NCBI GenBank assembly: GCA_009835325.1
Contig: VXWP01000038.1
Location: 1-44,343 of the forward strand
DNA from: Gemmatimonadota bacterium
GTDB taxonomy: Bacteria > JAAXHH01
DNA: 44,343 nt
Reading direction: 5' to 3'
In this document: in pieces, positions 27,457 to 35,096 of the stretch
Position numbering within the stretch: position 1 is the first letter of the stretch
Layout of the letters: each line of letters begins with the position of its first letter
The notes under the pieces: generated by a model
What the model was told of the DNA's origin: nothing
What the model saw: the letters and a program-made list of their open reading frames with translations, nothing else
Databases searched by the model: none
Translations under genes and position numbers: made by a program

Positions 27457-27484
27457 TTGACAGTCCCACGAAAGATTTTATTAT
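27457..27484 (+). promoter_or_regulatory. Promoter for the DtxR-type regulator
   Basis: A perfect -35 TTGACA (27457-27462) and -10 TATTAT (27479-27484, 5 of 6), spacer 16 nt. Transcription would start near 27491, downstream of the earliest possible start codon (27442), which supports the later ATG at 27562. TTTG...CAAA half-sites with a 6-nt centre at about 27497-27510 could belong to an operator, but this is weak. The rest of the 298-nt divergent gap shows only a GC-rich stretch around 27360-27415. Confidence 0.65.
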
Positions 27485-27561: not shown

Positions 27562-28092
27562 ATGGATGTCTGGAGAGAGTTCGAGCACAACGAGATTACG
27601 CACAGCGGCGCGCACTACCTGATGACGGTCCAGCAGTTAATCGAAGAACAGGGATATGCGCGGGTTTCAGACGTGGCCCGGGAAATGCACATCACACCCG
27701 GCAGCGCGTCGATCATGATCAAGTCGCTCCGTGAGAAGGGATACCTCGAAGAGGACAGGAACCGGTTTCTCCGGCTGTCGGACGAGGGAAACCGGCTGGC
27801 GCAGTCGGTATGGTCGCACCGCCAGATCCTCATCGCCTTTCTCAAGGGCGTCCTGCATATCGACGCGGAACAGGCGGAGATCGACGCGTGCAAGATCGAG
27901 CACCTGATCAGCACGAAGACGGGAGAACGGCTGCTGCTTTTCCTGCAGTTCCTCCTGTCGGACGATCCCCACGGCAAGGCGTTCCTCAAGTCCTACTGGG
28001 ACGCCAACGTGCTGACGATCTGCGATTTCGATACCTGCGCGGTGTGCGAGGAAGTGGGCGAATGCCTGGTCATCCGATCGGAGTCGGCGTGA
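27562..28092 (+). CDS. DtxR-family metal-dependent regulator with Cys-rich tail
   Basis: Represses or activates metal-homeostasis genes when bound to Fe2+ or Mn2+. The frame opens at 27442, but the promoter and family N-terminus favour ATG 27562 (176 residues). A winged helix-turn-helix (about 18-75: ARVSDVAREMHITPGSASIM IKSL region) is followed by the metal-binding/dimerisation domain with EIDACKIEHLIS: C110, E113 and H114 match DtxR C102/E105/H106. MntR has Glu at the Cys position, so this looks iron-type. The SH3 domain is missing; instead the tail carries C154-x4-C159-x2-C162-x5-C168, suitable for a zinc or Fe-S site. It heads the porin-apbE-feoAB block and is the natural candidate regulator. 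Confidence 0.88.
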   Translation: MDVWREFEHNEITHSGAHYLMTVQQLIEEQGYARVSDVAREMHITPGSASIMIKSLREKGYLEEDRNRFLRLSDEGNRLAQSVWSHRQILIAFLKGVLHIDAEQAEIDACKIEHLISTKTGERLLLFLQFLLSDDPHGKAFLKSYWDANVLTICDFDTCAVCEEVGECLVIRSESA

Positions 28093-28150
28093 GGGAAGTG
28101 GAAGCATTCGGTGTCCTGGCGGCGGCTCACGCGTCGTCAGAAAACGTAAA

Positions 28151-28192
28151 GGGACTATCGCAACATGGCCCGGCAAGCCCGGCGATAGTCCC
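28151..28192. promoter_or_regulatory. Perfect 11-bp inverted repeat upstream of the porin gene
   Basis: GGGACTATCGC (28151-28161) and GCGATAGTCCC (28182-28192) pair perfectly around a 20-nt loop; a direct repeat GCCCGGC starts in the loop (28168-28174, 28177-28183). There is no T-run immediately after, but a second small dyad (GTACG-GA-CGTAC) and TCTTGTTCTTT follow near 28227-28255. Either a terminator for the regulator gene or a leader element for the iron block. Confidence 0.6.
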
Positions 28193-28309
28193 TGGCAGGA
28201 CAGGTGATAATGTCCCTGAGGGCGGTACGGACGTACGCGACCCTCTTGTTCTTTAATATATATTGGCCGCTCGAAAGGGTCAATGTATTACTCGAAAGGA
28301 TTTCGTTAG

Positions 28310-29581
28310 ATGTACTGTCGTATACTGGTCGCCGTGATCGGCCTGATGATCCTCCCCAGCGTGCTGTTCGCGCAGGACGACACGAAGGATGAATCCGAGG
28401 AAATCAAGCGACGGATCGATGCGCTTGCCCAGGAGATCGAACAGCTGAAACTGGGCGAAGCTCTCGTGGATGCCAATCAAAGCCGATTCGGCTTCGGTCC
28501 CGCGGCTTCCAAGATCTACCAGACCGAGCGCGGCGTTTCCATCGGCGGTTACGGCGAGGCCGTGTATTTCAATTACGCCGGCGAAAAGGACGACGGCTCG
28601 AGCGGCAAGGCGGACGTGACCGACCTGTTGCGCGCCATCGTGTACGTCGGGTACAAGTTCGACAGCAAATGGCTCCTCAACACCGAGTTCGAGTTCGAAC
28701 ACGGCTCGACGGGCGCGGGCGGCAGCGTCTCGGCCGAGTTTATCCACCTGGAGTATACTCACAGCCCCGCCTTCAACATGCGTTTCGGCCTGTTGCTCGT
28801 CCCCATGGGACTGGTCAACGAACTGCACGAACCGACGGTCTACATGGGCGCGAACCGGCCGGACGTCGAGAAAGCCATCATGCCCAGCACCTGGCGGGAG
28901 AACGGGTTGGGCATCTACGGCGACACGGGTACGGTTTCCTACAGGGCCTATATCGTCAACGGTCTTAGAGGCTCCAAGTTCTCATCCGGCGGTCTGCGCG
29001 GCGGCCGGCAGAAAGGCGGCAGAGCGGTAAGCGACCATTTCGCGCTGGTCGGAAGGGCGGACGTCACGCCGCGGCCCGGGGTTCTCTTCGGCGGGTCATT
29101 CTACTATGGTAATTCGGGCCAGGATCTGGCACGCGAAAACGCCAATGTCAAGGTCCCGACGGGCATCTACGAAGGCCATGTCGACATTCGCCATTCAGGC
29201 CTGTGGTTCAGCGCCCTCGCCGCCTACGCGAAATTGGGTGACGTGGCGGCGTTGAACGATGCGCTCGGCTATACCGGTAACGGTTCCGTGGGTGAAACGT
29301 TGAATGGATTCTACGTCCAGGCAGGATACGACCTGCTGCACCGCTCCAGCTACGTCGGCCAATCCTTCATGCCATACCTGCGGTACGAGCGCGTGAACAC
29401 GCAGGCCTCCGTGCCATCGGGTTACACATCGAACCCGGCAAACGACAAGGGCAGTATTACGTTCGGCGCCGCCTATCAGCCCGAACCCAGGATCGTGTTC
29501 AAGGTGGACTACAAGAACAACACCAACGAGGCGGACTCGGGACTCGATCAGTTCAACCTACAAGTCGGATACGTCTTCTAG
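28310..29581 (+). CDS. OprP/porin-like outer-membrane beta-barrel protein
   Basis: 423 residues with a signal peptide (MYCRILVAVIGLMILPSVLFA before QDD), a short coiled coil (EEIKRRIDALAQEIEQLKLG) typical of porins that anchor to the cell wall or trimerise, and then alternating aromatic beta-strands: GVSIGGYGEAVYFNYAGE, YVGYKFDSKWLLNTEFEFEH, FNMRFGLLLVPMGLVNELHE, YAKLGDV, and a C-terminus ending in Phe (LQVGYVF). It resembles phosphate-selective porin O/P family members. It begins the apbE-FMN-cytochrome-feoAB block with a 3-nt gap to apbE, so it probably lets iron chelates or another redox substrate enter the periplasm; specificity cannot be read from sequence. AAAGGA lies upstream of the ATG. 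Confidence 0.8.
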   Translation: MYCRILVAVIGLMILPSVLFAQDDTKDESEEIKRRIDALAQEIEQLKLGEALVDANQSRFGFGPAASKIYQTERGVSIGGYGEAVYFNYAGEKDDGSSGKADVTDLLRAIVYVGYKFDSKWLLNTEFEFEHGSTGAGGSVSAEFIHLEYTHSPAFNMRFGLLLVPMGLVNELHEPTVYMGANRPDVEKAIMPSTWRENGLGIYGDTGTVSYRAYIVNGLRGSKFSSGGLRGGRQKGGRAVSDHFALVGRADVTPRPGVLFGGSFYYGNSGQDLARENANVKVPTGIYEGHVDIRHSGLWFSALAAYAKLGDVAALNDALGYTGNGSVGETLNGFYVQAGYDLLHRSSYVGQSFMPYLRYERVNTQASVPSGYTSNPANDKGSITFGAAYQPEPRIVFKVDYKNNTNEADSGLDQFNLQVGYVF

Positions 29582-29584
29582 TTC

Positions 29585-30595
29585 ATGACCATCAGCCTTT
29601 TACTCATACCCTGGTTGGCCCTGCTGCCCGAAAACCGGCCGGATCCCGTGCGCGTCGAGCGTCATCTGACCCTGATGGGTACTACCCTGGTGATCTCGGT
29701 CGAGGCCGGGGACCGGCGCGCGGCGATGGTAGCCAGCGAGAAAGCACTGGAAGCACTGCATCGGGCTGAGCGAAGGCTGTCGACCTGGACGAACGATTCC
29801 GAACTGGCCCGATTGAACGAAGCCGAGGTGGGGCGGACGGTGAGCCTGTCCCCCGAACTGGCCGCGGATCTGACCGTTGCCCGGGGGTGGTGGATCGCGA
29901 CTGGCGGCGCTTTCGATCCCGGAATCGGGACGCTCACCGAGATATGGGGCCTGCGCAGCGGCGGGAAGATGCCGACCCGCGCGTTGCTCGATCGGGTTGG
30001 GGACTTGCCGGGGTTGGAGGCGCTGGATATGGACGGGCCTACCGCCGCCCGGCGGCATCCCGACCTGCGCATCGACGAGGGGGGATTCGGTAAAGGCGCC
30101 GGCCTGGACGACGCGGTACGAAAGCTGACAGAGACGGATGCGACGTCCGCCATGATCAACCTGGGCGGGCAGGTGGCGCTTTACGGCTCCGGCAGATCCG
30201 TTCGTTTCGATGTGGCGGATCCATCGGACCGGCAACAGGTCGCGCTGACGCTCACCATCGACCGGGGAGCGCTGGCCACATCGGGGAACAGCGAGAGAGG
30301 TCTCGTGATCGGCGATCGAACCTACAGCCATATCCTTGACCCGAAAAGCGGAATGCCCGTACCGGATTTCGGTTCGCTGACCGTGTGGGCCGATGACGCC
30401 TTGGCGGCGGACTGCCTTTCGACCGGCCTTTACGTGCTCGGACCGGAAAAGGCCCTGGACTGGGCGGCGGAACGCGACGGGATAGAAGTACTCGTGCTTG
30501 AATCTTCCGATGACGGTATGTACGCCCGCGCGACAACCGGATTCAGGGGCCGAATCGATTCAGGAGGACCGGATGTCGTCCTGTCCTTCCGTTAA
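29585..30595 (+). CDS. apbE: FAD:protein FMN transferase ApbE
   Basis: ApbE cleaves FAD and attaches FMN by a phosphoester bond to a Thr/Ser of periplasmic flavoproteins. The 336-residue protein starts with a hydrophobic export segment (TISLLLIPWLALL), then HLTLMGTTLVISVEAG, LSTWTNDSELARLNE, GGAFDPGIGTLTEIWGL, GGFGKGAGLDDA (in the place of the usual GG-x-x-KGY), ATSGNSERG, YSHILDPKSGMPV and ADCLSTGLYVLGPEKAL with the metal-binding Asp/Thr. The next gene encodes a probable FMN-accepting protein and overlaps this one by 23 nt, giving enzyme and substrate in the same transcript. Confidence 0.93.
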   Translation: MTISLLLIPWLALLPENRPDPVRVERHLTLMGTTLVISVEAGDRRAAMVASEKALEALHRAERRLSTWTNDSELARLNEAEVGRTVSLSPELAADLTVARGWWIATGGAFDPGIGTLTEIWGLRSGGKMPTRALLDRVGDLPGLEALDMDGPTAARRHPDLRIDEGGFGKGAGLDDAVRKLTETDATSAMINLGGQVALYGSGRSVRFDVADPSDRQQVALTLTIDRGALATSGNSERGLVIGDRTYSHILDPKSGMPVPDFGSLTVWADDALAADCLSTGLYVLGPEKALDWAAERDGIEVLVLESSDDGMYARATTGFRGRIDSGGPDVVLSFR

Positions 30596-31172
30596 TTCCA
30601 AGCCGTCGTGGCCGGTCCTGCTGCAGGCAATGCGGTTCAGCCCATGGCTGCTTGCGACTGCTGTACTGATTACGTTACCGGCCCCTGCTTCTGCCAACGT
30701 TTACCTGTCCGTAGGCGAAGCGCTCGAAATGGCGTTTCCGGAATGCGAAATCGAGCGGCGGACGATTTACCTGACGGAGCAGCAGAAAACCGATGCCGGC
30801 GGAATGGCACGGGTGGAACTGAACAGTGTAATCATTTACCCCTACGTGGCGTTGAAGGGAGGCCGAATCGCCGGAGTCGCATACTTCGACAGCCATATCG
30901 TGCGTACGCTGGGGGAAACGATCATGGTGGCCATCGACCCGGACGACAGGGTAAGCCGCGTCGAACTGCTGGTGTTCAATGAACCACCGGAGTACATACC
31001 TCCGGAGGCCTGGTATCGGTTGTTCCCGGGCCAGCGGCTGGATGACCGCCTCGCCGTGAACCGGGGAATACGCGGCATCCTGGGCGCAACCTTAACGACG
31101 CGCAGCACCACCGACGCGGTGCGGCGCATGCTGGCGATTCATCATGTTATCAAGGATCAACTGGGACATTGA
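30573..31172 (+). CDS. Periplasmic FMN-binding (flavinylated) protein
   Basis: AGGAGG (30562-30567) fixes ATG 30573, inside the end of apbE (199 residues). An N-terminal signal or anchor (about 24-41, ending APASA) is followed by an FMN-binding domain of the NqrC/RnfG type: YPYVALKGGRIAGVAYFDSH, VMVAID-like strand IMVAIDPDDRVSRVELLVFN, and GILGATLTTRSTTDAVRR. G171-A-T-L-T175 matches the flavinylation motif of NqrC/RnfG (SGATLT), with Leu in place of the first Ser; T175 is the predicted FMN attachment site. With ApbE upstream and a cytochrome-b-like protein downstream it should carry electrons in the periplasm. It is not part of an Rnf or Nqr complex, whose other subunits are absent. Confidence 0.85.
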   Translation: MSSCPSVNSKPSWPVLLQAMRFSPWLLATAVLITLPAPASANVYLSVGEALEMAFPECEIERRTIYLTEQQKTDAGGMARVELNSVIIYPYVALKGGRIAGVAYFDSHIVRTLGETIMVAIDPDDRVSRVELLVFNEPPEYIPPEAWYRLFPGQRLDDRLAVNRGIRGILGATLTTRSTTDAVRRMLAIHHVIKDQLGH

Positions 31173-31663
31173 GCAGGATCGAAGTATGGTTCGTACATAT
31201 CTCGACGATCCTGGTCGGGGTTACCGGAGTGGCTTACGCCGTCATGAGATACCTCATGGAACCCGCGGATGCCTACTCCGTGGTCAACCACCCATGGCAG
31301 CCCGGCGTGCAGTATCTTCATATCGTGGTCGCCCCGTTCGCAGTGTTCGCCATCGGGCTGATCTGGAAGAACCATGTCTACGACCACTATCGGCGCGGAT
31401 TGACGACCGGGCGGCGCAGTGGGATAAGCATGATGCTGACGATGGTTCCCATGGTCGTATCGGGGTACCTGATCCAGGTGTCGGTCGGCGAGACCTGGCG
31501 CGTAATCTGGATCGTCGTTCATTGCATCGCATCTTTCCTCTGGATAACCGGTTACCTCGTGCATCAGGTAATCCATCTACGCAAAAAGGGGGCACTGCCT
31601 ATCCGAAAAACACCTTTGCGTTCCGTAGCGAGTACCGGCATCGGACCTTCTGACGCGAGATAA
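31169..31663 (+). CDS. Four-helix cytochrome-b-like membrane protein
   Basis: 164 residues with four hydrophobic helices (about 6-28, 48-67, 88-106, 112-135). Helix-located histidines H10, H51, H118 and H132, with H136 just beyond, are the pattern expected for a b-type cytochrome with one or two haems (DUF4405/cytochrome b561-like). The only possible start is TTG 31169, overlapping the stop of the FMN-binding gene by 4 nt (TTGA), so it is translationally coupled to it. Probable role: passes electrons from the quinone pool to the flavinylated periplasmic protein. feoA begins 3 nt after its stop. Haem binding is inferred from His placement only. Confidence 0.72.
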   Translation: MSRIEVWFVHISTILVGVTGVAYAVMRYLMEPADAYSVVNHPWQPGVQYLHIVVAPFAVFAIGLIWKNHVYDHYRRGLTTGRRSGISMMLTMVPMVVSGYLIQVSVGETWRVIWIVVHCIASFLWITGYLVHQVIHLRKKGALPIRKTPLRSVASTGIGPSDAR

Positions 31664-31666
31664 CCC

Positions 31667-31930
31667 ATGCAATCCGAACAATTTACCAGTACACAAGCGA
31701 ATACGATTTGCCTGGATGAGTTGAAACCGGGCGAGAAAGCGACGATCAGGCAGATCAAAGGCACGGCGGGGGAAGAAGTTCACCTGATGGAACTGGGACT
31801 GTTACCCGGGACAACCGTCGAAATGATCAAACGCGCACCTATGGGCGATCCGATCGAGATACGCGTTCGGAGATACCATCTGTCCATACGATGCGCGGAG
31901 GCCCGTTCGGTCATGGTGGAAAGAGAATGA
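31667..31930 (+). CDS. feoA: Ferrous iron transport protein FeoA
   Basis: 87 residues forming the SH3-like FeoA domain (about 15-85): LKPGEKATIRQIKGTAGEEV, LMELGLLPGTTVEMIKRAP, GDPIEIRVRRYHLSIR. FeoA is a small cytoplasmic partner of the FeoB transporter. It sits 3 nt after the cytochrome-like gene and 6 nt before feoB, so the redox genes and the transporter appear to share one transcript. Confidence 0.92.
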   Translation: MQSEQFTSTQANTICLDELKPGEKATIRQIKGTAGEEVHLMELGLLPGTTVEMIKRAPMGDPIEIRVRRYHLSIRCAEARSVMVERE

Positions 31931-31936
31931 TGGTTA

Positions 31937-34171
31937 ATGGCTGAAGTTTCGGATACATATACGGCGCGTGAATCCGTAATCGACGTACTCCTCGTCGGCA
32001 ATCCGAATACGGGCAAGACTTCCGTATTCAATTCGTTGACCGGGCTTCGTCAGAAAACGGGCAACTATCCCGGCGTGACCGTGGAGAAAAAGACGGGCAA
32101 CGTGACGGGGCCGGACGGCGGCACGCTTCGGCTGCACGACATGCCGGGGATGTACAGCCTTACCCCGAAGTCCCTCGACGATTCCATCGCCCGGGAGGTG
32201 CTGATCGGGGAAGCGGACGAGGACCTGGACATCCGCCTCATCGTGGTCGTGGCGGACGCTTCGAACCTCAACCGGAACCTCTACCTGGTCACCCAGCTCA
32301 TAGACCTCGGCATCCCCGTCGTCGTGGCCATGAATATGATGGACAACGCCGTCAGCAGCGGCGTACACATCGATCTCGACGCGCTATCCGATCAGCTCCA
32401 GGTCCCCATCGTGCCCGTCGTCGCTTCCCGTCAGCAAGGCATAGACGAATTACGGAAGATGATGTTCGACCAAATCGGTCCGGTGGGACCAGATACGCCC
32501 GCACCCGGGTCGACCGAAGCAGCCGGGACCGGTTCGACGGGGTCGGTGCCGTCCTCGGTTTCCTTCGCCGAACGGTTTCCTCGGAGACGGCTGCTGGGCG
32601 GCCTCCTCGACGAGGCGCTCGCCCCCGCGGCGGCGTGGTTCGGGGAACATACGAACCTGAACGAGGTGGCGCAGACCTCGGAAGCGTTGCGCGTGACTTC
32701 GAGCGACCAGGCGCTGCAGACTTGGATGGAAGGCCGACAGGACCCCTCCTGCAAGGAAGACCTGAAACGCATCGTGGAACAGACACGGGGCAGGCTGGAC
32801 GAGTTGCAGGTTCCGTGGCGGATGCTGGAGACCATCCTGCGGTATGACCAGATCGACGATCTCTATTCTCGGGTGGTGCGGGAGGACCGGGACGCACAGG
32901 CCAGCCTGAGCGTCCGGCTGGACCGCGCGTTCACCCACCGGATTGCCGGTCCGGTCATCGTCCTGGCCGTGTTCGCGCTGGTCTTCCAGTCCATATTCTC
33001 CTGGGCAGAAGCGCCCATGACGCTCATTGAGGAGGGGATCGCCGCCCTGGGCGCCTTCGTCTACCAGTTCCTGCCCGCCGGCATGCTGCGGGACCTGCTC
33101 GTGGACGGCGTCATCGCCGGCGTGGGCGCCGTGCTCGTCTTTCTCCCGCAGATCCTCTTCCTCTTCTTTTTCCTTGCGCTGCTTGAAGACACGGGCTACA
33201 TGGCCCGCGTCGCCTTCATCATGGACCGGTTCATGAAGAGCATGGGCCTGTCCGGCCACTCGGTCATGCCGCTGCTTTCGTCCTTTGCCTGTGCGATTCC
33301 CGGCATCATGGCGACCCGTACGATCAAGAACTGGAAGGACCGCCTCATCACCATCATGATCGCGCCGCTGATGAGCTGCAGCGCCCGCCTGCCCGTGTAC
33401 ATCCTGCTGATCGGCGCTTTCTTTCCGTCCATGACGATCCTGGGCGTGTTCACGCTGCAGGGGCTCATGCTGTTTTCCATGTATATTTTCGGGATCGTCG
33501 TCGCTATCGGCGCCGCGCTGGTGTTCAAGCGGTTATTCATGAAGGACGCCGTCCCCACGAGTTTCGTCATGGAACTGCCGCCCTACCGGCGGCCCTCCCT
33601 GAAGTGGGTCCTGCTGCAGATGTACGAGCGGGCAAAAGTCTTCGTGACGGAGGCGGGCCAGATCATCCTGGCCATATCGGTCGTCCTCTGGTTCCTGGCG
33701 TCCTATCCGCAACCCGACGACTACGATTCCATGACTTCCCGGTCGCGCATACAGCAAAGCTACGCCGGCGAACTCGGCCAGTTGATCGAACCGGCCATCG
33801 AGCCGCTCGGGTTCGATTGGAAAGTGGGCATTGGACTGATCACCTCCTTTGTCGCCCGGGAAGTGCTGGTCAGCACCATGGCCACGATCTACAACGTGGA
33901 GGAGGCCGATGAGACCTCGGTCGATCTGAGATCCTCGCTTCGAAGCGAGGTGGATCCCGAAACGGGCGATCGGGTCTATACGCCGCTGGTCGCCGTATCG
34001 CTCATGGTGTTTTTCGCGCTGGCCTGCCAGTGCATGGCCACGGTCGCCATCGTGAAACGGGAGACCAACGGTTGGAAATGGCCCATCGTCATGGTCCTGT
34101 ACATGACGGCCCTGGCCTACGTGGGGTCCCTGGTCGTCTACCAGGGGGGATTGCTCCTGGGGTACGGATAA
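31937..34171 (+). CDS. feoB: Ferrous iron transporter FeoB
   Basis: FeoB carries Fe2+ across the inner membrane. The 744-residue protein has the N-terminal G domain with G1 GNPNTGKTS (21-29), NYPGVTVEK, G3 DMPGMYSL and G4 NMMD, a helical spacer with a Pro/Gly/Thr/Ser-rich insert (PDTPAPGSTEAAGTGSTG), and a membrane domain of about 8-11 helices with two Gate motifs (VFLPQILFLFFFLALLEDTG; FACAIPGIMATR) and the second half with FDWKVGIGLITSFVAREVLV. It follows feoA by 6 nt and precedes a small FeoB-associated membrane protein. Immediate linkage to ApbE, an FMN protein and a cytochrome is uncommon and suggests coupled ferric reduction. Confidence 0.96.
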   Translation: MAEVSDTYTARESVIDVLLVGNPNTGKTSVFNSLTGLRQKTGNYPGVTVEKKTGNVTGPDGGTLRLHDMPGMYSLTPKSLDDSIAREVLIGEADEDLDIRLIVVVADASNLNRNLYLVTQLIDLGIPVVVAMNMMDNAVSSGVHIDLDALSDQLQVPIVPVVASRQQGIDELRKMMFDQIGPVGPDTPAPGSTEAAGTGSTGSVPSSVSFAERFPRRRLLGGLLDEALAPAAAWFGEHTNLNEVAQTSEALRVTSSDQALQTWMEGRQDPSCKEDLKRIVEQTRGRLDELQVPWRMLETILRYDQIDDLYSRVVREDRDAQASLSVRLDRAFTHRIAGPVIVLAVFALVFQSIFSWAEAPMTLIEEGIAALGAFVYQFLPAGMLRDLLVDGVIAGVGAVLVFLPQILFLFFFLALLEDTGYMARVAFIMDRFMKSMGLSGHSVMPLLSSFACAIPGIMATRTIKNWKDRLITIMIAPLMSCSARLPVYILLIGAFFPSMTILGVFTLQGLMLFSMYIFGIVVAIGAALVFKRLFMKDAVPTSFVMELPPYRRPSLKWVLLQMYERAKVFVTEAGQIILAISVVLWFLASYPQPDDYDSMTSRSRIQQSYAGELGQLIEPAIEPLGFDWKVGIGLITSFVAREVLVSTMATIYNVEEADETSVDLRSSLRSEVDPETGDRVYTPLVAVSLMVFFALACQCMATVAIVKRETNGWKWPIVMVLYMTALAYVGSLVVYQGGLLLGYG

Positions 34172-34175
34172 CCGC

Positions 34176-34232
34176 CGTCGGACCTCCTGGCAGTCGTCGG
34201 ACCGCCTGGCAGCCGTCGGACCACTTGGCTTT
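34176..34232 (+). repeat. Three 19-bp tandem repeats after feoB
   Basis: Units 34176-34194, 34195-34213 and 34214-34232 share CGTCGGACCNCCTGGCAGN (the last is diverged). They fill most of the 88-nt gap between feoB and the small Cys-rich protein and contain the GGACC / CCTGG elements seen in the 9-bp coding repeats. Confidence 0.88.
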
Positions 34233-34259
34233 TAGCCCGTCCGACATTATCTTGCTATC

Positions 34260-34493
34260 ATGGACCTTCAAACCCTGATCGTCGCCATAGTCGTGGGGGT
34301 CGCGGCCGCGTTTGTCTTGCGCACTTTCACCCGGCAGTTCACCTCCCGGGACCGGAAGGGATGCGGGAGCTGCGCTCACGGCGGCTCGTTGCTGACCGGA
34401 CAGACCAGGCAGTCCAGGCAGTCCAGCGCATCGCGTGACGACGAGCTGATCCAGGTAGAGCCGATCCAGGTGGAGGAGTCAATCCGGGAGTAG
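34260..34493 (+). CDS. FeoB-associated Cys-rich membrane protein
   Basis: 77 residues: one N-terminal transmembrane helix (LQTLIVAIVVGVAAAFVL, 3-20), a basic stretch, then GCGSC (C35, C38) followed by a polar tail. This matches the small FeoB-associated Cys-rich membrane proteins found directly after feoB in many genomes, thought to help FeoB assembly or metal delivery; their mechanism is unknown. The family usually stops soon after the Cys motif; here the tail is lengthened by a 9-bp repeat encoding Arg-Gln-Ser units. The position after feoB supports the call. Confidence 0.75.
   Translation: MDLQTLIVAIVVGVAAAFVLRTFTRQFTSRDRKGCGSCAHGGSLLTGQTRQSRQSSASRDDELIQVEPIQVEESIRE
34394..34429 (+). repeat. 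9-bp tandem repeat in the FeoB-associated gene
   Basis: Units GACCGGACA, GACCAGGCA, GTCCAGGCA, GTCCAGCGC at 34394, 34403, 34412 and 34421. The second is identical to the grpE unit. The reading frame differs from grpE (Thr-Arg-Gln-Ser instead of Asp-Gln-Ala). Confidence 0.85.
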
Positions 34494-34529: not shown

Positions 34530-35096
34530 ATGTCCGTATTCAATACGATCCGTAACAGACGGTCGATTTACGAATTCAAGCCGGAACCGGTCCCTCGGGA
34601 AGTGATCGCCCGCGTGCTCGAGACCGCCGTGTGGGCGCCGAACCACAAGCTGACGGAACCCTGGCGCTTCCTGGTCGTCACCGGGAAAACCAAGGAGACC
34701 CTGGCGAACATCTACTGCAGGATCCAGCGGGAGAAGACGAAGACGGACGATTCCGGCATCCTGCGGAAGGCCACGGAAAAGGGCTATGCCAAGATCATGT
34801 CCAAGCCCGTGATCATCGGCGTGGCCTGCAAGAAGGACGCGGACGCCTTTCGCGCCCGGGAGGATTACGCGGCAACCTGCTGCGCCATACACAATATCGC
34901 CCTGGCCGCCTGGGAAGAGGGCATCGGGATGCAGTGGAGCACGGGAGGGCTGATACGGGATCCCGATACGCTGGAGCTGCTGAAGATCGACGATCGGGAA
35001 GAAGAGATCGTCGGGTTCCTCTACACTGGCTATCCCGCGCAGGTCCCAGCCCAGAAGAGAGTGCCCGCCGCCGAACGGACCGAGTGGTTCGCCTGA
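34530..35096 (+). CDS. Nitroreductase family FMN oxidoreductase
   Basis: 188 residues, cytoplasmic. The nitroreductase fold is visible: N-terminal FNTIRNRRSIYEFKPEPVP with the FMN-contacting RRS, AVWAPNHKLTEPWRFLVVTG, EDYAATCCAIHNIALAAWEEG, MQWSTGGLI, and the C-terminal VGFLYTGYPAQVP. These enzymes use NAD(P)H and FMN to reduce nitro compounds, quinones or other electron acceptors, and some reduce flavins. It begins 36 nt after the FeoB-associated gene, so it could be the last gene of the iron transcript, but the link is not shown. Confidence 0.87.
   Translation: MSVFNTIRNRRSIYEFKPEPVPREVIARVLETAVWAPNHKLTEPWRFLVVTGKTKETLANIYCRIQREKTKTDDSGILRKATEKGYAKIMSKPVIIGVACKKDADAFRAREDYAATCCAIHNIALAAWEEGIGMQWSTGGLIRDPDTLELLKIDDREEEIVGFLYTGYPAQVPAQKRVPAAERTEWFA

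Follow-up and report, generated by a model that had tools for sequence, protein, structure and literature searches.

We analysed a stretch of 44,343 nucleotides (nt) from a Gemmatimonadota bacterium (the window; contig VXWP01000038.1 of assembly GCA_009835325.1), in which positions 27562-34493 hold a candidate reductive iron-uptake operon. Its eight genes, all open and co-directional, encode in order a DtxR regulator, a porin-like protein, the flavin transferase ApbE, an exported flavin mononucleotide (FMN)-binding protein (FMNp), a four-helix membrane protein (cyt), FeoA, FeoB and a small cysteine-rich protein (Cys protein) (Table 1). An earlier annotation made from the letters of this DNA, here called the sequence-only reading, had described eight co-directional genes with gaps of 3-6 nt or overlaps from the porin to feoB, and the spacings bear this out: 3 nt for porin-apbE, -23 nt for apbE-FMNp, -4 nt for FMNp-cyt, 3 nt for cyt-feoA and 6 nt for feoA-feoB, with 217 nt between dtxR and porin and 88 nt between feoB and the Cys protein gene. 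The identical gene order was found at the corresponding site in relatives at the level of genus, family and order, so the arrangement goes beyond chance; the synteny of the nitroreductase and Thioredoxin_9 protein genes downstream of the operon was also kept in relatives.

Table 1 Features of the operon and its immediate surroundings in the window.
Feature	Position	Strand	Evidence
sigma-70-like promoter ahead of dtxR, TTGACA-16-TATTAT	27457..27484	+	consensus match only (11/12)
dtxR/mntR-family metal-dependent regulator, 176 amino acids	27562..28092	+	PF01325 (2.2e-10), PF02742 (1.3e-13)
structured element in the dtxR-porin gap, candidate RNA leader/attenuator	28145..28262	+	hairpins 28150-28193, 28198-28215, 28218-28245
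outer-membrane porin-like protein, 423 amino acids	28310..29581	+	family alignment; porin near FMNp elsewhere
apbE, flavin adenine dinucleotide (FAD):protein FMN transferase	29585..30595	+	PF02424 (1.9e-60)
FMNp, exported FMN_bind protein	30573..31172	+	PF04205
cyt, four-helix membrane cytochrome b candidate, 164 amino acids, TTG start	31169..31663	+	model, His conservation
feoA	31667..31930	+	PF04023 (4.1e-21)
feoB, Fe2+ importer	31937..34171	+	PF02421 (1.4e-55), PF07670, PF07664 (9.4e-18); TIGR00437, 526 bits
small FeoB-associated Cys-rich membrane protein	34260..34493	+	PF12669; position kept in relatives
nitroreductase-family flavoprotein, downstream neighbour	34530..35096	+	PF00881 (7.9e-30); position kept in relatives

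Pfam comparisons agreed with the identities that the sequence-only reading had given to the DtxR, ApbE, FMN_bind, FeoA and FeoB proteins, with both domains of DtxR and the domains of FeoA and FeoB present. The Cys protein matched FeoB_associated (PF12669) at E 7e-6 with 26.6 bits, slightly below the cut-off of 27, and FMNp matched FMN_bind (PF04205) at E 1.9e-4 with 22.4 bits, the cut-off being 22. The apbE gene and the FMN_bind substrate gene adjoin with an overlap of 23 nt. The predicted FMN-accepting Thr173 of FMNp (31089-31091) lies in a GATLT motif, and G171, T173 and T175 were invariant in 9/9 sequences. A profile of these nine sequences aligned with RnfG of solved Rnf complexes, placing GATLT over the GxTxT stretch, at E 0.008, 0.11 and 0.12, values to be read beside the 0.11 to 0.8 of unrelated chains in the same list; the corresponding threonine of NqrC/RnfG carries FMN. 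A flavinylation motif is predicted in FMNp on these grounds, and the earlier claim of an ApbE beside its probable FMN-accepting exported substrate is supported by PF02424, PF04205 and the alignment to RnfG.

The membrane protein cyt had no Pfam family at E 0.01; up to E 5 the sole match was MFS_1 at 0.017, and PF14358 (DUF4405), PF01292 and the NapH, MsrQ, PepSY, DsbD and NQR/RNF classes gave none. An AlphaFold2 model built from 42 of the 48 sequences at hand (a 9-sequence version gave a poor model, predicted local distance difference test (pLDDT) 59.7) showed four helices with a pLDDT of 92.1 and a predicted template modelling score (pTM) of 0.80. The top three Foldseek matches were the cytochrome b of E. 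coli hydrogenase-1 (E 0.12-0.57, probability 0.99-0.94), and VIA-align ranked highest a designed two-heme protein (Z 11.2, root-mean-square deviation 2.8, 104 aligned), followed by HyaC (11.1), cytochrome b6 (10.7) and the superoxide oxidase CybB (10.1), with FdnI at 9.2; the first 13 rows were all b-type cytochromes or the two-heme design. HyaC, FdnI and CybB carry two b hemes. In cyt, His51, His69, His118 and His132 were present in 42/42 sequences and His10 in 33/42; helices 2 and 4 each carry two of the invariant residues, an arrangement that we interpret as two axial pairs at opposite sides of the membrane. The modelled fold resembles diheme b cytochromes, which lead both structural lists, so the haem-b-like membrane protein of the sequence-only reading gains model-based support. 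An identity as an MFS or DUF4405 protein was supported by neither Pfam nor the model, searches of PDB sequences with cyt returned no useful match, and one match to cyt in genome G057 was dropped as spurious (7 internal stops).

The porin-like protein has a signal peptide, an N-terminal coil and a C-terminal Phe, as judged by eye. It matched no Pfam family at E 0.01 and none at E 5, and PDB sequence searches gave no useful match; in an alignment of 12 family members, one weakly matched BBP2 and one Porin_O_P in Pfam, and a 31% identical Parabacteroides protein carries the annotation "porin". Relatives in Parabacteroides and Pseudoalteromonas (L290:4872-8851, L291:4785-9021) are followed by genes annotated as imelysin-family and di-heme oxidoreductase proteins, which suggests that the porin family is paired with several periplasmic redox sets.

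We then compared the site across the window's genus, where its order is GlnE-dtxR-[module M]-feoA-[module P]-feoB-Cys protein-nitroreductase-thioredoxin-PhoH. Module M, the porin-apbE-FMNp-cyt set, was present in genomes G000, G002, G003 and G007 and contig L083, and outside the genus in G012 and G015. All seven M copies follow the window's order of apbE-FMNp-cyt-feoA with the porin ahead (split over two contigs in G015), and a PepSY gene stands between feoA and feoB in three of them. The sequence-only reading had named relatives in which the module is never near feoAB as the finding that would speak against it; 7/7 of these copies lie directly before feoA. Module P, a PepSY_TM protein joined in 8/11 copies by a small protein, whole or partial, occurs in G001-G006, G008-G011 and L083, whereas searches of G000, G007, G012, G013 and G015 showed none; the PepSY_TM of G002 (L065:7785-9023) matched PF03929 at 3.5e-53.

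Eight genus genomes are without M (G001, G004, G005, G006, G008, G009, G010 and G011), and PepSY_TM lies between feoA and feoB in 8/8 of them. In G001, G004, G005, G009 and G011 the 3' part of the cyt gene is left as a scar before feoA, with 60-78/85 nt identical to the window in ungapped comparison (73-83/85 for M-bearing genomes), and all five scars have a single common junction. In G006, G008 and G010, M is absent, with at most a weaker remnant (48-50/85), and the first copy of the structured element is also absent. Overall, 15/16 genomes or contigs with the operon carry M, P or both; no close counterpart of this dtxR, of cyt or of FMNp turned up in G014. We counted L083 (G059) as a contig, as its 5.3 Mb bin may be mixed, with two listed FeoB_C matches on another contig. 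In G001 the PepSY_TM gene (L071:5171-6407) is split into one piece with residues 1-321 and another with 323-412; the assembly may be at fault, or the gene may be decaying.

FMNp was also found well outside this group, with matches at E 1e-3 in 122/396 Acidobacteriota genomes, 79/294 Planctomycetota genomes and 85/384 genomes sampled from relatives of the window's genome and from elsewhere in the domain, numbers whose weak tail will include other FMN_bind proteins. The 80 loci that we fetched from beyond the window's order, counted after removal of the duplicates L125 and L226, came mostly from the best-ranked entries of these lists, and many are closely related. One porin family lies within 3.5 kb of FMNp in 76/80, a four-transmembrane-helix (4-TM) protein near FMNp in 77/80 (61 of the window's cyt type and 16 of a second type), and ApbE near FMNp in 62/80. 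From this sequence survey, porin-FMNp-4TM is a conserved unit in several phyla, usually with ApbE. Fused reading frames, porin with FMNp in L209 and FMNp with ApbE in L243-L245, are in keeping with a putative functional unit. The second 4-TM type, 150-195 amino acids long (e.g., L210:8661-9158, L211:8769-9269, L214:7626-8123), replaces the window-type cytochrome in its 16 loci, and two members scanned had no confident Pfam family. Other arrangements include L206:5756-7777, with multicopper oxidase and ferritin-like genes (by Pfam) between porin and flavoprotein, and an Ideonella dechloratans plasmid (L289:3475-7862) with consecutive genes for cytochrome c peroxidase, a related porin-like protein, an FMN-binding protein, an FMN transferase and a small hypothetical protein.

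The link to iron genes recurs in part of these loci. Of the 99 Acidobacteriota genomes with a strong match to FMNp, 80 were searched for FeoB, and a strong FeoB lay within 6 kb of FMNp in six of the 80 (G060, G332, G363, G379, G417 and G424), compared with an expected 0.23 to 0.46 if each genome has one to two feoB. Two orders were seen, feoB-apbE-porin-FMNp-cyt (L087 and L131; feoA and the Cys protein in L087 by eye) and Fur-feoB-DtxR-apbE-porin-FMNp-cyt (L141, L269-L271); in L141, Pfam confirmed Fur and showed that the DtxR protein carries a FeoA domain. Further groups have Fur-porin-FMNp/ApbE-4TM-feoA-feoB (L244, Fur confirmed), Fur-feoB-porin-FMNp-4TM (L221) and feoA-feoB-x-porin-FMNp (L220). 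Within 9 kb in the 80 loci we counted FeoB in 12 (10 convincing; the weak partial matches of L230 and L235, at 1e-7 and 4e-5, were discarded), the Fur family in 17, DtxR in six, ferritin in three and multicopper oxidase in three; FeoB enrichment alone has a measured expectation, the other counts being without background, and excluding L269-L271, which were chosen for FeoB, leaves 7/77 convincing cases. Chance adjacency of module and feo was rejected on the conservation across genera together with this linkage elsewhere. In most other loci seen the module has no feo next to it; it is an independent unit, for which coupling to feo is one use. FMN_bind has a single match in the window's own genome and FeoB two; the second feoB is on a separate contig, with another DtxR-like gene about 3 kb away; a PHROGs comparison gave no informative match.

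Regulatory features precede both modules. The dtxR at the corresponding site had 95-98% identity in the genus genomes searched, and the promoter's TTGACA was kept in 11/11 aligned genus sequences. In the dtxR-porin gap, the stretch 28100-28290 folded 3.6 standard deviations under its shuffles, and its structured element, used as a query, had matches in 7/16 genomes at E 0.01, one site per genome, six of them full-length including the window's own (the others 90-96% identical) and that of G009 cut by a contig end. Across ten model-aligned sequences, pairing was kept in 95.9% of cells, compared with 30-46% in slid controls, and nine pairs were altered on both sides, compared with 1.6 in shuffles (0/500 as high), in an alignment fitted to the structure and with much resting on G012 and G013; an earlier alignment not fitted to the structure had seven doubly changed pairs. 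The third hairpin has a T-rich stretch at its end and is terminator-like.

A covariance model found weaker copies of the element between feoA and PepSY_TM (E 2e-4 to 0.01; e.g., L065:7658-7766) and, in G007, which is without P, between feoA and feoB. This second copy was too conserved for covariation, with 0/33 pairs changed on both sides. The core hairpin pattern occurred at 22 sites in 15/17 genomes (~71 Mb), every one inside this operon, 10 between dtxR and the porin or its remnant and 12 after feoA; the pattern read backwards had 0 sites in the same genomes. This confinement led us to reject a dispersed genome repeat. A known riboswitch was also rejected: Rfam at gathering score reported two tRNAs only in the whole window and no match to the element, and laxer limits gave one sub-threshold match on the opposite strand (E 0.69) and, for the second copy, three matches (E 2.1 to 5.3) all under the gathering score. 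The arm spacers of 20-23 nt and the covarying upper stems make the predicted hairpin fit better as RNA than as a plain DNA operator. We propose the element as an operon-specific, undescribed regulatory candidate ahead of each reductase module.

Taken together, we consider it probable that the block is a reductive iron-uptake operon in which electrons pass from quinol to a diheme cytochrome b, to covalent FMN and to Fe(III), before import by FeoB. ApbE would covalently attach FMN to the exported FMNp, and Fe(III), free or chelated, would enter the periplasm via the dedicated porin. The four-helix diheme cytochrome b would carry electrons of the quinol pool across the inner membrane to FMNp, FMNp would reduce the periplasmic Fe(III), and FeoAB would import the resulting Fe(II); expression would be set by DtxR together with the structured element between dtxR and porin. 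Ferric reduction is the most economical role for M, because every genus member without M has PepSY_TM in the operon. At the sequence level this reading has behind it the gene content and order, their conservation, the scars and the PepSY_TM of M-free species; the fold like that of diheme b cytochromes and the flavinylation motif are predictions, and we infer that cyt holds heme, which way the electrons run, that Fe(III) is the substrate, what the porin carries and that iron controls the operon. A further idea, which we offer tentatively and hold to be rather doubtful, is that non-homologous ferric reductases, either M or PepSY_TM, are interchangeable on one FeoAB chassis, each after its own copy of an undescribed cis-regulatory RNA that would sense iron, flavin or redox state and gate the reductase.

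Several observations weigh against the reductive iron-uptake reading. The M-or-P two-by-two pattern alone did not reach significance (Fisher p 0.11). M and P occur together in two genomes and in contig L083, and in G013, from a different genus, M has collapsed to a porin start and a fragment of cyt, so that neither module is intact. In a four-gene locus tree, M-bearing and M-free genomes interleave, with G007 (M) pairing with G011 (no M). The history of M is therefore not a simple loss series, and loss and regain by recombination would both fit it; repeated deletion of M many times over was rejected, given this interleaving and the single junction of the five scars. The six FeoB-linked Acidobacteriota genomes represent two gene orders and not six independent events, so that the excess, counted as two events, is modest (P(>=2) 0.02-0.08). 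In 70/80 loci there was no convincing feoB within 9 kb, some loci being cut by contig ends. Some module neighbours are not iron-linked (PPK2, lipase, pyridine-nucleotide oxidoreductase). For cyt, Foldseek returned nothing at E 0.001, and VIA-align Z values of 9-11 are ambiguous for helical bundles (under ~13), with channels and other helical proteins at Z 8-9.

These points bear on the alternatives as well. The porin-FMNp-cyt set might serve general periplasmic electron delivery to a non-iron acceptor (peroxide, another metal or an organic compound), its location beside feo reflecting only shared regulation of flavin and iron economy. Most loci outside the window's order, with no feoB within 9 kb and varied neighbours, would suit such a role, as would the Ideonella plasmid with a related porin and FMN set beside cytochrome c peroxidase; however, FeoAB, Fur, DtxR, ferritin and multicopper oxidase turn up repeatedly, in distinct groups and in varying gene orders, and PepSY_TM lies inside feoAB of sister species without the module, and we judge this explanation unlikely. 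The constancy of the porin near FMNp, which exceeds that of ApbE or any iron gene, and the single open frame of porin and FMNp in L209 could instead indicate an outer-membrane electron conduit, in which FMNp would dock inside or beneath the porin and reduce Fe(III) or minerals outside the cell, in the manner of porin-cytochrome conduits, and Fe(II) would return through the pore to FeoB. FMNp is single-domain with one predicted flavin, however, and we saw no wire of several flavins or hemes in the operon, which makes a conduit improbable in our estimate. Electrons might also flow inward, the module oxidising a periplasmic donor such as Fe(II) or another reduced metal and passing electrons to quinone, so as to limit toxicity during iron uptake. 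The direction could in principle reverse, according to PMC8238504, and multicopper oxidase and ferritin genes adjoin the module in L206 and L207; yet an Fe(II) oxidase in an Fe(II) importer operon would counteract import, and PepSY-type relatives act as reductases, so we give inward flow very little probability.

Feo users of oxidised iron need a periplasmic ferric reductase, for which the module, in the reductive iron-uptake reading, is a concrete and compact candidate. A putative PepSY reductase stands in the module's place within one operon, which makes functional replacement readily testable, and the operon-specific structured element can likewise be tested as a new regulatory candidate.

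Among known systems, cited here from the accessible parts of each paper, the Geobacter sulfurreducens operon porin-feoA-feoA-feoB2, with a predicted Fur site (PMC545781), also has a porin adjoining feoAB, but lists no ApbE, FMN protein or cytochrome there, and the two porins are likened by description. Flavinylation-associated and iron-associated heme b membrane proteins with central His, the DUF4405 and FezC cytochromes (PMC11334425), are comparable to cyt; DUF4405 is described with six helices, whereas cyt has four and no DUF4405 match, and FezC is likened by description, not by sequence. The diheme cytochromes b HyaC, FdnI and CybB match the four-helix model of cyt in structure, at Z values ambiguous for helical bundles, but cyt is without PF01292 and is paired with a flavoprotein instead of a hydrogenase or dehydrogenase.

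The PepSY-family ferric-siderophore reductases are inner-membrane proteins that reduce periplasmic iron ahead of Feo. FsrB, of the FoxB family COG3182, is required ahead of FeoAB for ferric-siderophore use in Bradyrhizobium, where inorganic iron is stated to need another reductase, as yet unknown (PMC10760861), and HiuB, a FoxB-like PepSY protein acting with the small HiuC, does a similar job in Caulobacter (PMC13001220). The PepSY_TM that occupies the operon in sister species ties these systems to the window's operon; unlike the module, they rely on a single large protein with no separate flavoprotein, and they have no sequence family in common with it.

A precedent for the module itself is the published link of flavinylation to the iron transporters VIT1 and P19/FTR1 (Meheust et al. 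2021, PMC8238504), with NapH-, MsrQ-, PepSY-, DsbD- and NQR/RNF-like membrane partners. The main text of that paper has no porin and mentions Feo in a reference title only, and its supplements may list a Feo-linked cluster; by word count, neither porin nor Feo occurs in the available text of PMC11334425 or of the ApbE review PMC12052999. A full-text search, with most subscription papers, preprints and supplements outside its reach, found no paper combining flavinylation, ApbE and FeoB, and for FMN-binding, porin, feoB and iron together it matched one paper, by its listing a Cupriavidus genome. The sequence-only reading knew of no described system coupling such a redox chain to feoAB, a view that holds for Feo within the main text of PMC8238504 and has to give way for iron transporters at large, their coupling to flavinylation having been published. 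Those systems and the window's operon have in common ApbE, an exported FMN_bind protein, a membrane electron carrier and a link to an iron-transporter gene, and differ in that the operon has a Pfam-less four-helix protein, a porin and FeoAB. As judged from its genes, the Feo-linked porin-FMNp-four-helix set is apparently distinct from the published flavinylation-iron clusters, within a general idea that was already known.

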